Shown piece by piece: positions 38,102 through 61,258 of a stretch of 64,000 nt of DNA. Within the stretch, counting starts at the first letter, position 1, and the number at the start of each line of letters is the position of its first letter. Below the pieces are notes generated by a model. That model did not search any database. It was not told the origin of the DNA and worked only from the letters and a program-made list of their open reading frames with translations. Made by a program: the position numbers and the translations under genes. The stretch spans positions 186,001 through 250,000 of the forward strand of contig NZ_JALLGW010000001.1 in the NCBI RefSeq assembly GCF_023074835.1, read 5' to 3'. The DNA is from Halomarina salina. Lineage in GTDB: Archaea; Halobacteriota; Halobacteria; Halobacteriales; Haloarculaceae.

Positions 38102-38158
38102 ATGGAACAGAGACACACGGGAACCGACACCGCCAGCGACTGGACGGTCGGTGACTGA
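38102..38158 (+). CDS. Putative leader ORF of nirA (18 residues)
   Basis: ATG 38102 opens an 18-codon frame ('MEQRHTGTDTASDWTVGD') whose TGA ends two bases before the nirA ATG at 38161. A TATA-like element 27 nt upstream would put the transcript start at this ATG, so ribosomes may translate it first and then reach nirA by coupling. The alternative is that it is a chance ORF in a short leader. An overlapping ATG at 38083 also opens a 23-codon frame. Similar short ORFs precede nasA, narK and gdhB. No protein function is claimed. Confidence 0.35.
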   Translation: MEQRHTGTDTASDWTVGD

Positions 38159-38160
38159 CG

Positions 38161-39924
38161 ATGCCCCACAAGAAAGAGGCGTGGAAGACGGAGGCGTACG
38201 GCGACGAGGTCCGCGAGAAACTGCTGGAGTTCGCCGAGCGCGGCTGGCACTCCATCCCCGAGGACGAGCGAGACGAGTGGTTCTCGCGGTTCAAGTTCTG
38301 GGGCGTGTTCCACCAGCGGTCGGGCCAGGAGAGCTACTTCATGCTCCGCCTGACGAACTGCGGCGGCGTGCTGGAGCCGGGGCAACTGCGCGCCATCGGC
38401 GAGGTGGCGCGCGAGTACGCGAGCGGTCCCATCGAGAACCCGGAGTTCGGCGACGCCTGGGTCGACTTCACCACCCGGCAGTCGATTCAGCTCCACTGGT
38501 TGAAACTGGAGGATATCCCGGAGGTGTGGGAGAAACTCGAGGCGGTCGGCGTCTCCTCGCGGTCGGCGGGCGGGGACACCATGCGCAACATCTCGGGCTG
38601 TCCGGTCGCCGGGAAGGACGCCGAGGAGTACGTCGAGACGCGGCCGCTGCTCGACGAACTCCAGGCGGACCTGCGCGGTGACGACGCGCTGGCGAACATG
38701 CCCCGGAAGTTCAACATCTCCGTCACGGGCTGTCGGCAGGGCTGTGCGCAGGACTCCATCAACGACGTGGCGCTGGAACCGGCTCGCAAGCTCGTCGCGG
38801 GTGAGCGCGTCCGGGGGTTCAACCTCCGGGCCGGCGGGGGACTCGGCGGCCGCGAGCCGCGTCGCGCCCGCTCGCTCGACGTGTTCGTGACGCCCGAGAA
38901 CGCCTACGAAGTGGTCCGGGCGTTCGTCGAACTGTACCACGAGACCGGCGACCGCGAGAACCGCAACAAGAACCGCGGCCGGTTCTTCGTCGACGAACAC
39001 GGGACAGAGACCATCCGCGAAGAGCTCGCCGAGCGCGTCGACTTCACGCTCCGTCACTCGGGGACCGACCTCCGCGGCGAGTACACGTACAACGCGGGCC
39101 GACCGAGCGAGGACGGCCGCCACGACCACGTCGGCGTCCACGAGCAGGGCGGTGGCCTGCACTACGTCGGGCTGAGCGTCCCCGTGGGGCGCATGGGCGC
39201 GGAGGAGACCGTCGAACTGGCGGCCCTGGCCGACGAGTACGGCAGCGGCGAGGTGCGCCTGACCCGGCGACAGAACCCGCTGATAATGGACGTCCCGGAG
39301 GACGCCCTCGACGCGCTGCTCGCCGAACCGTTGCTGGAGACGCACTCGCCGGAGCCGTCGACGTTCACCCGCGGCACGATGGCGTGTACCGGCACCGAGT
39401 TCTGCTCGCTGGCGCTGACGGAGACGAAGGCGCGGACCGCCGTGATGCTGCGCTGGCTCCGGGCGAACGTCGACCTGCCGGACGACGTGGACCAGTTGAA
39501 GATACACTTCTCGGGCTGCACCGCCGACTGCGGGCAGGCGCTGACCGCCGACATCGGCCTGCAGGGGATGCGCGCCCGGAAGGACGGCGAGATGGTCGAG
39601 GCGATGGACGTCGGCGTCGGCGGCGGCATCGGCGCGGAGCCGTCGTTCATCGAGTGGGTCCACCAGCGCGTCCCAGCCGACGAGGTGCCGGGGATGCTGC
39701 GCAACCTCCTCCACGCGTTCGCCGCGTTGCGCGACGAGGGCCAGACGTTCCGGGAGTGGGTCGACGCCACTGGTCACGAGACCATCGTCGAACTGGCCGA
39801 CCCGGAGGAGACCGACTACGAGGACCCGTGTCTGTACGACGCCAAACAGTCGTGGTACCCGTTCGCCGACGGGGAGAGCCCCGCGCCGACCGCACCCGAC
39901 GGTACTCCGCTCGCCAATGACTGA
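38161..39924 (+). CDS. nirA: Assimilatory nitrite reductase, ferredoxin-dependent (nitrite/sulfite reductase family)
   Basis: A 587-residue sirohaem/[4Fe-4S] enzyme that reduces nitrite to ammonium with six electrons from ferredoxin. The cluster-sirohaem cysteines are the C-x5-C of 'ACTGTEFCSLAL' and the C-x3-C of 'SGCTADCGQAL', both in the second half; the first half has the paired 'ISGCPVAGKD' and 'VTGCRQGCAQ' segments of the duplicated fold. Nitrite rather than sulfite specificity is inferred from the adjoining nitrate reductase and nitrate carrier. It is the first full gene of the cluster. A 16-residue ORF begins inside its last codons and leads to nasA. Confidence 0.93.
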   Translation: MPHKKEAWKTEAYGDEVREKLLEFAERGWHSIPEDERDEWFSRFKFWGVFHQRSGQESYFMLRLTNCGGVLEPGQLRAIGEVAREYASGPIENPEFGDAWVDFTTRQSIQLHWLKLEDIPEVWEKLEAVGVSSRSAGGDTMRNISGCPVAGKDAEEYVETRPLLDELQADLRGDDALANMPRKFNISVTGCRQGCAQDSINDVALEPARKLVAGERVRGFNLRAGGGLGGREPRRARSLDVFVTPENAYEVVRAFVELYHETGDRENRNKNRGRFFVDEHGTETIREELAERVDFTLRHSGTDLRGEYTYNAGRPSEDGRHDHVGVHEQGGGLHYVGLSVPVGRMGAEETVELAALADEYGSGEVRLTRRQNPLIMDVPEDALDALLAEPLLETHSPEPSTFTRGTMACTGTEFCSLALTETKARTAVMLRWLRANVDLPDDVDQLKIHFSGCTADCGQALTADIGLQGMRARKDGEMVEAMDVGVGGGIGAEPSFIEWVHQRVPADEVPGMLRNLLHAFAALRDEGQTFREWVDATGHETIVELADPEETDYEDPCLYDAKQSWYPFADGESPAPTAPDGTPLAND

Positions 39925-39967
39925 GGGCGTCACCGTCGCGGCCACGGCCGTGGAGGACTGCCCGTGA
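39917..39967 (+). CDS. Putative bridging ORF between nirA and nasA (16 residues)
   Basis: ATG 39917 lies inside the final codons of nirA and opens 'MTEGVTVAATAVEDCP', whose TGA (39965-39967) overlaps the GTG start of nasA (GTGA). The frame contains GGAGG (39952-39956), a ribosome-binding site 7 nt before the nasA GTG. It could pass ribosomes from nirA to nasA by two successive overlaps. It may equally be chance; I claim no protein function. Confidence 0.3.
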   Translation: MTEGVTVAATAVEDCP

Positions 39968-42108
39968 CCGACCCCGTCCCGACGACCTGCATGCGCTGTG
40001 CGGTCGGCTGCGGGCACCTCCAGCACACGGCCGACGTCGGGCAGGCCATCGACGTCGTGAGCGGCGACGTGAGCCACCCGGTGAGCCGAGGGCTGGCCTG
40101 CCAGCGCGGTATCGACGAGAGCGCCAACCCGAAGGGCGAGTGGCTGTCGCGCCCGCTCGTGCGCGAGGACGGCGAACTCCTCCCGACGACCTGGGATCTG
40201 GCGATGAGCCGCGTCGTCGAGCGGTTCTCGGAGGCGCTCGCACGCGACCACGACGCCGTCGCCGTCCTCGGCAGCGGCCAGCAGACCAACGAGGCGGCGT
40301 ACGCGCTCGGCAAACTCGCCCGCGGCGGCTTCGGCACGCGGTTCTACGACGCCAACACGACGCTCTGCATGGCCAGCGCGGTGACGGCCTACTACGACGC
40401 GTTCGGCAGCGACGCGCCGCCGCCGACGTACGACGACATCCCCGACGCGGAGACGCACCTCGTCTGGGGAGCCAACCCCGCGGTCGCCCACCCGGTCATG
40501 TTCCGCTGGATCACGGAGAGCGCGGAGGACGGTGCCCTCGTCGTCGTCGACCCGGTCGAGACGCGGACCGCCGAGGTGGCGGACCGCCACGTCGCGCTCG
40601 AACCGGGGACGGACCTCGCGCTCGCACGGGCAATCCTCGCCCGCATCGTCGAACGCGACGAGGTCGACGAGGCGTTCGTCGAGCGAGCGACGGTCGGCTT
40701 CGACGACCTCCGGGCGACGCTACCCGACGCCGCGAGCGCCGCCGCCACCGCGGGCGTCGACGAGGAGACGCTGGACGCGCTGGCGACCGCGTTCACCCGG
40801 AAGACGCTCTGCTACTGGGGAATGGGCGTCAACCAGAGTACGCAGGGGACGGCGACGGCGGGTGCGCTGGTCGACCTGTGTCTCGCCACGGGGAACCTCC
40901 GGCCGGGGAGCGGCCCGTTCTCGCTCACCGGCCAGGCGAACTCGATGGGCACCCGCGTCTGCTCCTCGAAGGGCTCCTGGCCCGGCCAGCGTTCGTTCAC
41001 GGACCCGGACGAGCGCCGGACCGTTGCCGAGGCGTGGGGCGTCCCGGTCGACCGACTCCCGGACGACCCCGGTCCGGGGCCAGTAGAACTCGTCGAGGCC
41101 GTCGACGACGGGCCGGTCGAAGCCGTCTGGACCGTGGCGACGAACCCCGTCGCGGGGCTGCCGGACGCGAGCCGCGCCCGCGAGCGACTCGACGACGCGT
41201 TCCTCGTCGTGCAGGACGCCTTCCGGACGGAGACGGTCGAACTCGCCGACGTGGTCCTCCCGGCCGCGACGTGGGGCGAGTCCGAGGGGACGACGACGAA
41301 CATGGAACGTCGCGTCTCGCGCGTGCGGGCCGCCATCGACCCGCCCTCTGGCGTCCGAACCGACCTCGACATCGTCCAGCGCATCGGCGACGCGCTGGTT
41401 CCGGGCCTGTTCGGCGACCACGACCCGGAGGCCGTCTTCGAGGAACTGGCGGCGCTCACCGCGGGCACGCCCGCAGACCTCTCGGGGATGAGCTACCCCC
41501 GCCTCGACGCGGAGGGCGCGGTCCGGTGGCCGGCACCGGACGCCCGGTCGGCGGGCGGCTACCGGTACTACGAGGGTGAAGCGAGCAGCGAGGACGCAGC
41601 GGACGACGCACAGGGTGGCACGGAGCGCTGGTCGTTCGCCACTCCGTCCGGTCGAGCGCGCTTCTCGACCGGCGGTCACGGCGGCCTCGCGGAACCGACC
41701 GACGAGTCGTACCCGCTGACGCTGACGACGGGCCGCGAACCGGACGGCTACAACACGGGGGTCCGCTCGCGCGGAGCCGACGCGCCGGAGCGACCGACCG
41801 CGCGCGTCCACCCGGCGACGCTGGCGTCGGTCGGTGGCGGCAGTGGTGACGGCGGTGACGCTGGCGACGACGGACTCGCCGTCGAGTCGCGGCGCGCGAG
41901 CATCACCGTCGACGTGGACGCCGACGAGGCCGTCCCGGAGGGCCTCGTCTGGCTCCCCATCCACCACCCGAGGACGAACGAACTGACCCTCCCGGCGACC
42001 GACCCGCGCTCCGACGAACCGAACTACAAGCAGTGTGCGGTCAGGCTGGTACCGGTCGACGACCCGGTCGCCGCGACCCACCCACAGCGAGCGAGCGGCG
42101 ACGACTGA
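39964..42108 (+). CDS. nasA: Assimilatory nitrate reductase (molybdopterin oxidoreductase)
   Basis: A 714-residue enzyme that reduces nitrate to nitrite at a molybdenum bis-MGD centre, in the cytoplasm. The N-terminal [4Fe-4S] site is Cys9, Cys12, Cys16 and Cys46 ('TCMRCAVGCGH' and 'RGLACQRG'). Further MoCo-family landmarks are 'VLGSGQQTNEAAYALGKLAR' (in part), 'GMGVNQSTQGT', 'TGQANSMGTRV' and 'PAATWGESEGTTTNMERRV' (part). No twin-arginine signal is present, which fits an assimilatory enzyme. Acidic linkers near residues 540 and 635 are halophilic insertions. GTG 39964 has GGAGG 7 nt upstream and follows nirA closely, so the two are co-transcribed. Family length near 700-750 supports completeness. 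Confidence 0.92.
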   Translation: MTDPVPTTCMRCAVGCGHLQHTADVGQAIDVVSGDVSHPVSRGLACQRGIDESANPKGEWLSRPLVREDGELLPTTWDLAMSRVVERFSEALARDHDAVAVLGSGQQTNEAAYALGKLARGGFGTRFYDANTTLCMASAVTAYYDAFGSDAPPPTYDDIPDAETHLVWGANPAVAHPVMFRWITESAEDGALVVVDPVETRTAEVADRHVALEPGTDLALARAILARIVERDEVDEAFVERATVGFDDLRATLPDAASAAATAGVDEETLDALATAFTRKTLCYWGMGVNQSTQGTATAGALVDLCLATGNLRPGSGPFSLTGQANSMGTRVCSSKGSWPGQRSFTDPDERRTVAEAWGVPVDRLPDDPGPGPVELVEAVDDGPVEAVWTVATNPVAGLPDASRARERLDDAFLVVQDAFRTETVELADVVLPAATWGESEGTTTNMERRVSRVRAAIDPPSGVRTDLDIVQRIGDALVPGLFGDHDPEAVFEELAALTAGTPADLSGMSYPRLDAEGAVRWPAPDARSAGGYRYYEGEASSEDAADDAQGGTERWSFATPSGRARFSTGGHGGLAEPTDESYPLTLTTGREPDGYNTGVRSRGADAPERPTARVHPATLASVGGGSGDGGDAGDDGLAVESRRASITVDVDADEAVPEGLVWLPIHHPRTNELTLPATDPRSDEPNYKQCAVRLVPVDDPVAATHPQRASGDD

Positions 42109-42248
42109 CGACGAGGGCGGCACGGCCAGCGCACCGACCGACCTGGTCGGCGACGGAGGACGCTCGCGGGGCGAGCGGTGGCCCGAGGAGCGACCGCTAA
42201 ACACTCGCTAGAGGGCCTGAAATCGCAGATATCCCTAGAATACCTTCA

Positions 42249-42267
42249 ACCGGTACCGACGCATGAC
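42249..42267 (+). promoter_or_regulatory. Candidate nitrogen-control site upstream of narK
   Basis: The sequence acCGGTACCGACGcATGac (19 nt, core palindrome CGGTACCG) matches 16 of 19 bases of the inverted site before nirA (38022-38040). It lies about 50-65 nt upstream of the narK TATA-like element, a position used by activators. Function inferred. Confidence 0.4.
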
Positions 42268-42315
42268 CCAGTCTCCGAGGGCCACCCAAGAGTGAATGTT
42301 CGCTTCAGGGGAGCG

Positions 42316-42323
42316 CTTATTAC
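42316..42323 (+). promoter_or_regulatory. TATA-like element for narK
   Basis: 'cttattac' would start transcription near 42347, giving a leader of about 70 nt that includes the 19-residue ORF. Confidence 0.45.
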
Positions 42324-42357
42324 GGAAATACCGCACGGAACCATCGAGGAACGACAC

Positions 42358-42417
42358 ATGAGACAGAGCAATCTGACGATACAGGTGACGAAACGTACAC
42401 TACCGGAGGGTCGGTGA
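42358..42417 (+). CDS. Putative leader ORF of narK (19 residues)
   Basis: ATG 42358 opens '[19 protein letters not shown]', ending at TGA 42415-42417, one base before the narK ATG at 42419. The last codons contain GGAGGG (42405-42410), the ribosome-binding site of narK at 8-nt spacing. Translation of this ORF would therefore run through that site and deliver ribosomes to narK. It may be a chance ORF; see the same layout before nirA, nasA and gdhB. Confidence 0.35.
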
Positions 42418-42418
42418 G

Positions 42419-43711
42419 ATGGGACTCGTTCGGATGACCAAGTGGCGGACGCTCGTGCTGGCGACCGTCGGGTTCAACTTCTCCTTCCTCATCTGGTTCT
42501 CGTTCGCACCGTTCACGGGGCCGATGGCCGAGGAGTTCGGCCTCTCGCTGGCCGAGATCGGTATCCTGGCGAGCGCGGCCATCTGGCTCGCGCCGTTCGG
42601 GCGCATCCTGACGGGGTGGCTCTCCGACAAGTACGGCGCGCCGACGGTGTTCGCCATCGTGCTGGGCTACGTCGGCGTGTTCTCCATCGCGTCGGCGTTC
42701 GCACAGTCCTACACCGTGTTCTTCGTCGAGCGGCTCATCGTGGCGACGGCGGGCATCACGTTCGTCATCGGCATCCAGCACGTCTCGGAGTGGTTCGAGG
42801 AGGAGGAACTCGGGACCGCGGAGGGCATCTACGCGGGCATCGGGAACGCCGGGGCAGCGGGTGGGGCGCTCATCCTGCCGCGGGTGTTCCCGAGCGACTG
42901 GAGCGGACCGCTGTTCTCGACGAACTGGCGGGCCGCGTTCTTCTACACCGGTATCGTCTCCATCCTGCTGGGGGTCGCCTACCTGCTGCTCGGCGAGGCG
43001 GCCAAGAGCGAGACGAAGCGCCAGGCGACGAAGGAGAAGGCGAGTTTCGACGAGTGGTTCTACACCGCGACCCGGTACGGGACCGTCGTCCTCGCGCTGG
43101 CGTACGTGATGACGTTCGGCCTCGAACTGTCGATGAACGGCTGGCTCGCGACGTACTACCGCGAGGGGTTCGACACGAACGACCTCGTGCTGGCGAGCAC
43201 GTTCGCCGCGACGTTCTCCGTCGCCGCCGGACTGCTCCGGCCCGTCGGCGGCTACGTCAGCGACCGCCTCGCCCGCGCCGAACGCGACATCCTGCCGGTG
43301 TTCCACGGTCGCTACCGCGAGCAGTGGACGTTCGTCTCGCTGTGTTTCGTCGTCCTGACGATGTTCGTCATGACGCTCGCGGGACTCAGCGGGCAGGTGC
43401 TGCTGGCCGTCGCCGCGGGCTTCCTCGTCGGGATGGGCTGTGCGTTCGCCGAGGGGGCCATCTTCGCACAGGTGCCCGCGATGTTCCCGGACAGTTCGGG
43501 GGCCGTTGCGGGCGTCGTCGGCGGTATCGGCACCGTCGGCGGCATCGTCTACCCGCTGGTGTACGCCGCGCCGATGCTGCCGAACCTCCACACCGGCTAC
43601 GCCGTCGTCGGGGTGTCGATGGTGCCCATCCTGCTCCTCGCGGCGTGGGTGTTCCGGCCCACGGTCGCCGAGCAGGCCACCACCGCCGGATTCGTCGGGA
43701 GCGACGACTGA
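42419..43711 (+). CDS. narK: Nitrate/nitrite transporter, MFS (NarK/NasA type)
   Basis: A 430-residue 12-helix carrier of the nitrate/nitrite porter group. The MFS motif is '[12 protein letters not shown]' between helices 2 and 3. The group signature, a Gly-rich helix, appears as '[15 protein letters not shown]' in the first half and '[14 protein letters not shown]' in the second; conserved Arg residues that bind nitrate are expected in helices 2 and 8. '[15 protein letters not shown]' follows helix 1. It imports nitrate for the reductases encoded just upstream. A strong ribosome-binding site GGAGGG precedes the ATG by 8 nt. Own promoter elements suggest regulation by nitrogen source. Confidence 0.92.
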
Positions 43712-59715: not shown

Positions 59716-59808
59716 ACCTGCGGTTGCGGCCGCGACGGGAAAGCCGTGGCGTCCGCCGAATCCATCGTGGTCGTGCGTGACACGCCACCACGATTCGCGG
59801 GACTGTGT

Positions 59809-59836
59809 TAATATAGCATATATGGATTAATATTAT
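59809..59836. promoter_or_regulatory. AT-rich divergent promoter region before gdhB
   Basis: A 28-bp run of nearly pure A/T ('ttaatatagcatatatggat', then 'taatattatatg') is the most AT-rich spot in the region. The part 'taatattata' lies about 30 nt before ATG 59862, so it can serve as the TATA box of the gdhB leader. Confidence 0.5.
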
Positions 59837-59861
59837 ATGTACGTACGGGATAGCGACAGTC

Positions 59862-59972
59862 ATGTACGATGGAAGAACCGCCACCGCGGCGGTTGCCATC
59901 CGGACGTCCGTGGACAGCCCTCCGCTCGTGACAGCAGCACTCGCCACCGCACCGTCGGGGGAGGGTCGCTGA
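59862..59972 (+). CDS. Putative leader ORF of gdhB (36 residues)
   Basis: ATG 59862 opens a 36-codon frame (starts '[17 protein letters not shown]', ends 'APSGEGR') whose TGA overlaps the gdhB ATG by one base (TGATG at 59970-59974). GGAGG (59960-59964) near its end is the likely gdhB ribosome-binding site, 7 nt before the ATG. A TATA-like element sits about 30 nt upstream, so this ORF could be the first thing translated from a leaderless message. It may be chance; the same layout precedes nirA, nasA and narK. Confidence 0.35.
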
Positions 59973-61258
59973 TGGCGACGACGGAGGACGCTCCGGAGGA
60001 GGTCGACCCCGAGTCGGAGTCACCGCTGACGACCGCCCGCCGCCAACTGGAGGCGGCCGCGGCCCACCTCGACATCGACGCGAACGTCGTCGAGCGACTG
60101 AAACACCCCCGGAAGGTCGAGCGCGTCGCCGTCCCCGTCGAACGCGACGACGGGAACATCGAGGTGTTCACCGGCTACCGGGCCCAGCACGACTGCGTCC
60201 GCGGGCCGTACAAGGGCGGTCTCCGCTACAACCCGCACGTCACCGAGGACGAGTGCATCGGCCTCGCGATGTGGATGACCTGGAAGTGCGCCGTGATGGA
60301 CATCCCCTTCGGCGGCGCGAAGGGGGGCGTCGTCGTGGACGAGCGCACCCTCTCGAAGGGCGAGAAGGAGCGCCTGACGCGCCGGTTCGCACAGGAACTG
60401 CGCGACGCCGTCGGCCCGAAGAAGGACATCCCGGCACCCGACATGGGCACCGACCCCGAGACGATGGGCTGGTTCATGGACGCCTACTCGATGCAGGAGG
60501 GGGAGACGACGCCCGGCGTCGTGACCGGGAAACCGCCCGTCATCGGCGGGAGCTACGGCCGCGAGGAGTCGCCCGGCCGCTCGGTGGCCATCGTCACCCG
60601 CGAGGCGTGCGACTACTACGACATGGACCTCGACGACACCACCGTCGCAGTGCAGGGCTTCGGCAGCGTCGGCGCGAACGCCGCCCGCCTGCTCGACGAC
60701 TGGGGCGCGTCGGTCGTCGCCGTCAGCGACGTCGACGGAGCCGTCTACGACCCCGACGGCCTCGACACGCGCGACGTGATGGGCCACGACGAGCGCCCCG
60801 GCATGGTGTCGGGCTACGACGCGCCCGAGACGCGCACCAACGAGGAACTGCTCGAACTCGACGTGGACGTACTGATCCCCGCGGCCGTCGGGAACGTCCT
60901 CACGGCGAGCAACGCCAACGACGTGCAGGCCGACCTCGTCGTCGAGGGGGCGAACGGCCCGACGACCACCGGTGCGGACGCCATCTTCGAGCGCCGCGGC
61001 GTGCAGGTCGTCCCGGACATCCTCGCCAACGCGGGCGGCGTCACCGTCTCGTACTTCGAGTGGCTCCAGGACATCAACCGCCGGTCGTGGACGCTCGAAC
61101 GGGTCCACGAGGAACTCGAATCCGAGATGCTCGACGCCTGGGAGGACGTGCGGTCGACGTTCGACACGAGCGACGACCTGTCGTGGCGCGACGCCGCCTA
61201 CGTCGTCGGCCTCCAGCGTGTCGTCGACGCGCACAACGCCCGCGGTCTCTGGCCGTAA
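59972..61258 (+). CDS. gdhB: Glutamate dehydrogenase
   Basis: A 428-residue enzyme that makes glutamate from 2-oxoglutarate and ammonium, or the reverse, with NAD(P). The substrate site is '[18 protein letters not shown]', the catalytic Lys lies in '[15 protein letters not shown]' and the Rossmann motif is '[17 protein letters not shown]'. '[12 protein letters not shown]' and '[18 protein letters not shown]' are conserved near the C terminus. Length is the archaeal norm. It could take up ammonium made by nirA. ATG 59972 is chosen over an in-frame GTG-less extension because GGAGG precedes it and the upstream frame is Arg/His-rich. The leader is long (about 110 nt) for a haloarchaeon. Confidence 0.97.

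Follow-up and report, generated by a model that had tools for sequence, protein, structure and literature searches.

Short reading frames before nitrogen-assimilation genes of Halomarina salina: probable ribosome delivery to nasA and gdhB

Within the stretch of Halomarina salina DNA analyzed here (the window, 64,000 nt in full), nirA, nasA, narK, and gdhB are each preceded by a short ORF that ends at or very near the start of the gene. The question is whether such ORFs do something for the gene that follows and, if so, whether it is the peptide or the position of the frame that matters. An initial annotation had given coordinates for the four ORFs and names for the flanking genes, all of which were confirmed by direct reading and domain matches:

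38102-38158, + strand: nirA upstream ORF, 18 codons, predicted leaderless, stop 2 nt 5' of the nirA ATG at 38161, without a Shine-Dalgarno (SD) sequence
38161-39924, + strand: nirA, assimilatory nitrite reductase-type protein (NIR_SIR domains PF01077 and PF03460)
39917-39967, + strand: nirA-nasA relay mini-ORF, 16 codons, MTEGVTVAATAVEDCP
39952-39956, + strand: GGAGG within the relay mini-ORF, 7 nt before nasA
39964-42108, + strand: nasA, assimilatory nitrate reductase (NF041323 NasA_Halo), GTG start at 39964
42358-42417, + strand: narK upstream ORF, 19 codons, stop 1 nt before the narK ATG at 42419
42419-43711, + strand: narK, MFS transporter of NarK type (best NCBIfam match TIGR00886 NarK, below cut-off)
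59808-59838, + strand: gdhB promoter block TTAATATAGCATATATGGATTAATATTATAT, its terminal TTATAT at -29 to -24 from the mini-ORF ATG
59862-59972, + strand: putative coupling mini-ORF of gdhB; 36 codons, predicted to be leaderless, overlapping the gdhB ATG (59972) in TGATG
59960-59964, + strand: GGAGG Shine-Dalgarno-like motif within the gdhB mini-ORF, 7 nt before gdhB
59972-61258, + strand: gdhB, glutamate dehydrogenase (NF041398 GdhB_Halo)

Relative to the gene start, the ORFs end at -3 (nirA), +3 (nasA), -2 (narK), and 0 (gdhB), each an overlap or a gap within the roughly 10 nt taken as the limit for coupling. The relay mini-ORF has two such junctions in the window, an 8-nt overlap with the nirA stop (ATGACTGA) and a 4-nt GTGA overlap with nasA. 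A GGAGG had been placed 7-8 nt before three of the genes; it is present in the nasA, narK, and gdhB ORFs, but with 7, 9, and 7 intervening nt, and direct reading of the window finds none before nirA. The TATA-like element noticed before the nirA and gdhB ORFs holds up against the peak in AT content found at -30 to -24 before gene starts in an 864-kb sample of the genome. Both ORFs have TATA at this calibrated spacing, which would suit leaderless transcripts with a start 0-5 nt ahead of the AUG, and the scores are 4.62 for nirA, where the box is well placed, and 6.57 for gdhB, the highest among coupled ORFs of the sample. By eye, the TATA of the narK ORF lies about 11 nt too far away for a leaderless start.

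It could be argued that all of this is chance, since in GC-rich DNA short ORFs often reach start codons, especially those of the form NTGA, and the four similar genes were picked post hoc. In the 864-kb sample, whose genes were called by a simple codon-usage script with imperfect starts (those of nasA and narK were missed), an ATG ORF of 10-60 codons ending between -3 and +3 precedes 24 of the 265 genes whose upstream gap is 60 nt or more. When the wider criterion of an end within -8 to +3 is used, coupled ORFs are only mildly above dinucleotide shuffles, both at NTGA starts (49/184 observed, 33.9 expected) and at other starts (13/315 observed, 11.1 expected). Counting such ORFs before other genes, a check that the initial annotation had proposed, shows that they are not rare elsewhere, but a coupled ORF combined with a strong TATA at leaderless spacing is unusual, being found at only 4 of 499 genes with a gap of at least 60 nt, and two of these four are gdhB and nirA. 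Furthermore, coupled ORFs are found before 17 of 31 leadered genes that bear an SD and 45 of 468 that do not (Fisher 3.4e-9). Because the chance per gene is not negligible and the counts lie near shuffle levels, the pattern within one genome is only suggestive, and relatives must decide which ORFs are real. For a control gene (50743), the ORF was kept in its original reading frame in only two of seven congeners.

For gdhB, relatives give a consistent picture. In a sample of the family, an ORF stops between -3 and 0 in 27 of 30 orthologs (2.3 expected), and these upstream ORFs fall into two classes, either a conserved 47-aa zinc-ribbon gene (DUF7129/NF033497) or a mini-ORF. The mini-ORF class, of 22-36 codons, is found in 13/13 distinct loci of the window's genus and genus g4. 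In both genera the promoter block TGTGTTAATATAGCATATATGGATTAATATTATAT is nearly invariant and the distance from TATA to the mini-ORF ATG is constant in all 13, whereas gdhB follows that ATG at anything from 71 to 110 nt; even so, every stop is at -3, -2, or 0. When only the interior is shuffled and the ATG and length are kept constant, the chance of an end within -8 to +3 is 0.016-0.165 per locus, and the product over six sequence clusters is 1.7e-8. The peptides, on the other hand, have no sequence in common between clusters, most codon changes among related mini-ORFs alter the amino acid, and purifying selection on the peptide was not found. The same design recurs in independent genera, with 21 codons and an end at -2 in g26, and with 38 and 46 codons and an end at -6 in g27; it is also seen, with an end at +3, in Halobium salinum (the named outgroups being only those taken from a scan of genome contigs with few haloarchaea). 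These results, above all the 13/13 distinct loci in two genera, strongly support a coupling of gdhB to its mini-ORF in which position rather than product would matter. A fourth gdh copy in the genome (G000:C2:333494-334711) contains one in-frame TGA and is probably a pseudogene.

An alternative for gdhB is that the conserved ATG found where transcription is predicted to begin is itself a promoter (initiator) feature and that the ORF after it is a by-product. Across the order, an ATG is present at this position in 45 of 70 stand-alone gdhB loci. Among these 45, the ORF ends within -8 to +3 in 20, within 13 nt in 10 more, and is fused in frame to gdhB in two. In genus g38 the ATG is kept and the ORF often ends far from gdhB, while in genus g40 the ORF consists of ATG, GTG, and a stop. 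Since g38 and g40 keep the ATG mostly without coupling, gdhB is evidently translatable without it, and coupling is not universal. However, an initiator would leave unexplained why the frames in g1, g4, g26, and g27 stay open and, at many lengths, stop 0-5 nt from gdhB; as an account of the mini-ORF it therefore seems rather improbable. Among g38 loci with nearly the same promoter, the start-site ATG is fused in frame to gdhB in two (L239 and L250), and in another (L249) gdhB itself lies at leaderless distance.

The nasA ORF was compared across Halobacteriales in the 51 orthologs whose upstream DNA could be read: an ATG ORF stops between -8 and +3 in 48 of them, compared with 12.6 ± 3.0 expected from shuffles that preserve start codon context, although in such ortholog counts related sequences are not independent. 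The junction is almost always a 4-nt NTGA overlap, and the genome-wide figure for NTGA starts with which 48/51 is to be compared is the 49/184 given above. Where nirA lies directly upstream, 13 loci including the window combine an 8-nt overlap on the way in with a 4-nt NTGA overlap on the way out; these double-junction relays belong to families f1, f4, f5, f12, and f17, are 16-61 codons long, and vary in peptide. The 8-nt overlap is ATGACTGA, and once ATGATTGA; it should be noted that ATGACTGA readily arises from the common acidic C-terminus. At locus L379 the frame differs, yet the ORF ends with an 8-nt overlap. Shuffling of the relay interior is uninformative, as a frame of fixed start and length stays open anyway; since an open frame is easily had in GC-rich DNA, the weight for the relay rests on the frame and its junctions. 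Where nasA lies behind its own promoter, the ORF in many loci appears, by eye, to start a few nt past the predicted transcript start. Eight nasA leader ORFs of family f7 (L371, L374, L376, L380, L382, L384, L386, and L387) contain a palindrome-like sequence, GTGTGATTGTAAATCACAC, which is possibly an operator downstream of the predicted transcript start. Overall, the position kept in 48/51 orthologs strongly supports coupling for nasA as well, again with position rather than product as the feature likely to matter.

The remaining two ORFs fare less well. The nirA start is kept among relatives, but the ORF before it is absent in the four congeners that have nirA; coupled ORFs occur in 13 of 45 nirA orthologs, where 4.25 would be expected, and their form is specific to the lineage. 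Coupling at nirA is thus weakly supported, lineage-specific, and absent in its own genus, and the same delivery of ribosomes as proposed below may operate there in the window's lineage only. The nirA promoters (L011-L034 and L281-L298) have in common a block, TTNAACGANTAGnnTTAT, that takes in the TATA box and the bases immediately before it. The narK ORF is not conserved among relatives, and many narK orthologs have an SD with no upstream ORF ending nearby; it is probably incidental, by chance or as a lineage-specific feature. In four congeners the nasA frame ends, by eye, at or next to the narK start, whereas in the window narK lies 310 nt after nasA. The gene order is nirA-relay-nasA-narK in the window (38161-43711) and nasA-narK-nirA in congeners (L281-L288 and L337-L341), so the cluster has been rearranged. 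The fates of the narK and nirA ORFs speak for chance, but against it stand the 48/51 nasA orthologs, the 13/13 gdhB loci of changing length, and the presence of gdhB and nirA among only four leaderless-plus-coupled cases, and as an explanation of the whole we regard it as unlikely.

The comparison with relatives thus strongly supports the earlier proposal of coupling, with position over product, for nasA and gdhB, supports it weakly for nirA, and does not support it for narK. The further proposal of one device for ammonium-producing and ammonium-using genes was not borne out: the junctions differ from gene to gene, similar junctions occur at other genes, and a nitrogen-regulon device shared by all four was rejected, given that the narK and nirA ORFs are not conserved.

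Two explanations that give the ORF sequence itself a role have also been considered. In the first, the ORFs encode functional small proteins that by happenstance share an operon with these genes. The zinc-ribbon gene at the equivalent place before other gdhB copies would be in keeping with this, as would the relay peptides of several other families, which share APMDVAPELFP and whose product may matter there. However, the window's relay peptide is without this motif, Pfam gives no match for its gdhB peptide, and the 22-36-codon gdhB mini-ORFs are unlike one another between clusters and differ mostly at non-synonymous positions. A peptide family was rejected: the nirA ORF peptide likewise has no Pfam match, and the relays of other families have no Pfam or NCBIfam match. 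Small proteins are thus a very unlikely answer. Least probable of all is leader-peptide attenuation, which had been suggested, or nitrogen sensing, in which stalling on the ORF would set expression by ammonium or amino-acid supply: nasABC and nasD of Hfx. mediterranei are ammonium-repressed (PMC8143581, PMC2483277) and folding of the nirA leader is somewhat stronger than that of its shuffles (z -2.6), but there are no runs of Glu/Gln codons, the peptide sequence is not conserved, in six species the gdhB leader shows no folding beyond that of shuffled sequence (z -1.3 to +0.7), and Rfam gives no match, so that both amino-acid attenuation, lacking a codon signature, and a structured leader or riboswitch were rejected.

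Taken together, these results have led to a model in which the mini-ORFs before nasA and gdhB are, quite probably, translated carriers that deliver ribosomes by termination-reinitiation. From the conserved frame and junctions we infer that the mini-ORFs are translated; the transcript starts are predicted from TATA spacing, and reinitiation and a need for the ORF would complete the scheme. In Hfx. volcanii, an SD does not initiate translation de novo and premature upstream stops abolish translation of the downstream gene (PMC6728339), coupling is lost at a spacing of 22 nt (PMC10666635), and 72% of transcripts are leaderless (PMC4983044). If an SD cannot start translation de novo, then both gdhB, with its predicted leader, and the distal nasA, each of which has an SD, would need a ribosome terminating nearby. 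In this model, the gdhB mRNA would begin at the mini-ORF AUG, where ribosomes would load in the manner of leaderless translation; after 36 codons they would terminate at UGA and begin anew at the gdhB AUG that overlaps it. For nasA, ribosomes leaving nirA would enter the 16-codon relay through the 8-nt overlap and then nasA through the 4-nt GUGA; the relay would thus bridge the 39-nt nirA-nasA gap, which by itself would be too long for coupling, to judge from the H. volcanii experiments (PMC10666635). In the mini-ORF forms, the start, the reading frame, and the position of the stop would matter, and the peptide would not. In the searched text of the published H. volcanii ribosome profiling there is no mention of uORFs or glutamate dehydrogenase.

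Termination-reinitiation and short ORFs that deliver ribosomes are known ideas (PMC6728339, PMC12548453, PMC13255528). Neither a conserved leaderless delivery ORF before gdhB nor a nirA-nasA relay ORF turned up in a search of the open-access literature, which does not prove absence. More broadly, and tentatively, haloarchaea may use ribosome-delivery mini-ORFs as a recurrent, evolutionarily replaceable part, which may take the form of a true gene, of a nonsense ORF read as a leaderless message, or of a relay, with turnover among them. If so, genes unable to start on their own leader would keep a coupled frame in front, be it the zinc-ribbon gene, the end of nasA, or a mini-ORF. This bears on how leadered or distal SD-bearing genes of haloarchaea get ribosomes when most mRNAs are leaderless, and a conserved mini-ORF of changing sequence and fixed junctions would be a concrete, testable answer. 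Annotations probably overlook such mini-ORFs, since these are too short and vary too much.

Several known systems invite comparison. The overlapping gene pairs of Hfx. volcanii (Huber 2019, PMC6728339; Huber 2023, PMC10666635) are alike in their -4, -1, and -8 overlaps or 1-2-nt gaps, in the SD within the upstream frame, and in the haloarchaeal host. However, those are pairs of protein genes, whereas here the upstream member is an ORF of 16-36 codons without a conserved product, either placed at the predicted mRNA start, as for gdhB, or linking two genes as a relay, as for nirA-nasA. The uORFs found by dRNA-Seq in 5' UTRs of Hfx. volcanii (PMC4983044) are likewise short (15-31 aa) and lie in haloarchaeal leaders, but those leaders are 150-250 nt long and the ORFs were read as possible small proteins; here, leader length is about 60-110 nt and different species keep the stop at the start of the gene. 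The zinc-ribbon gene of other haloarchaeal gdhB loci, which is rubrerythrin-like, sits in the same position, with its end about 3 nt ahead of gdhB, but it encodes a conserved protein, has another promoter, and is without GGAGG, and no sequence relation to the mini-ORFs was found. Alike in proposed role, that of delivering ribosomes rather than making a peptide, are the delivery ORFs (reviewed in PMC12548453), such as mycobacterial MIRU and a synthetic nonsense-peptide ORF (PMC13255528). Those examples are bacterial or synthetic, whereas the mini-ORFs described here are archaeal, predicted to be leaderless, conserved across species, and, between nirA and nasA, built as a double-junction relay.
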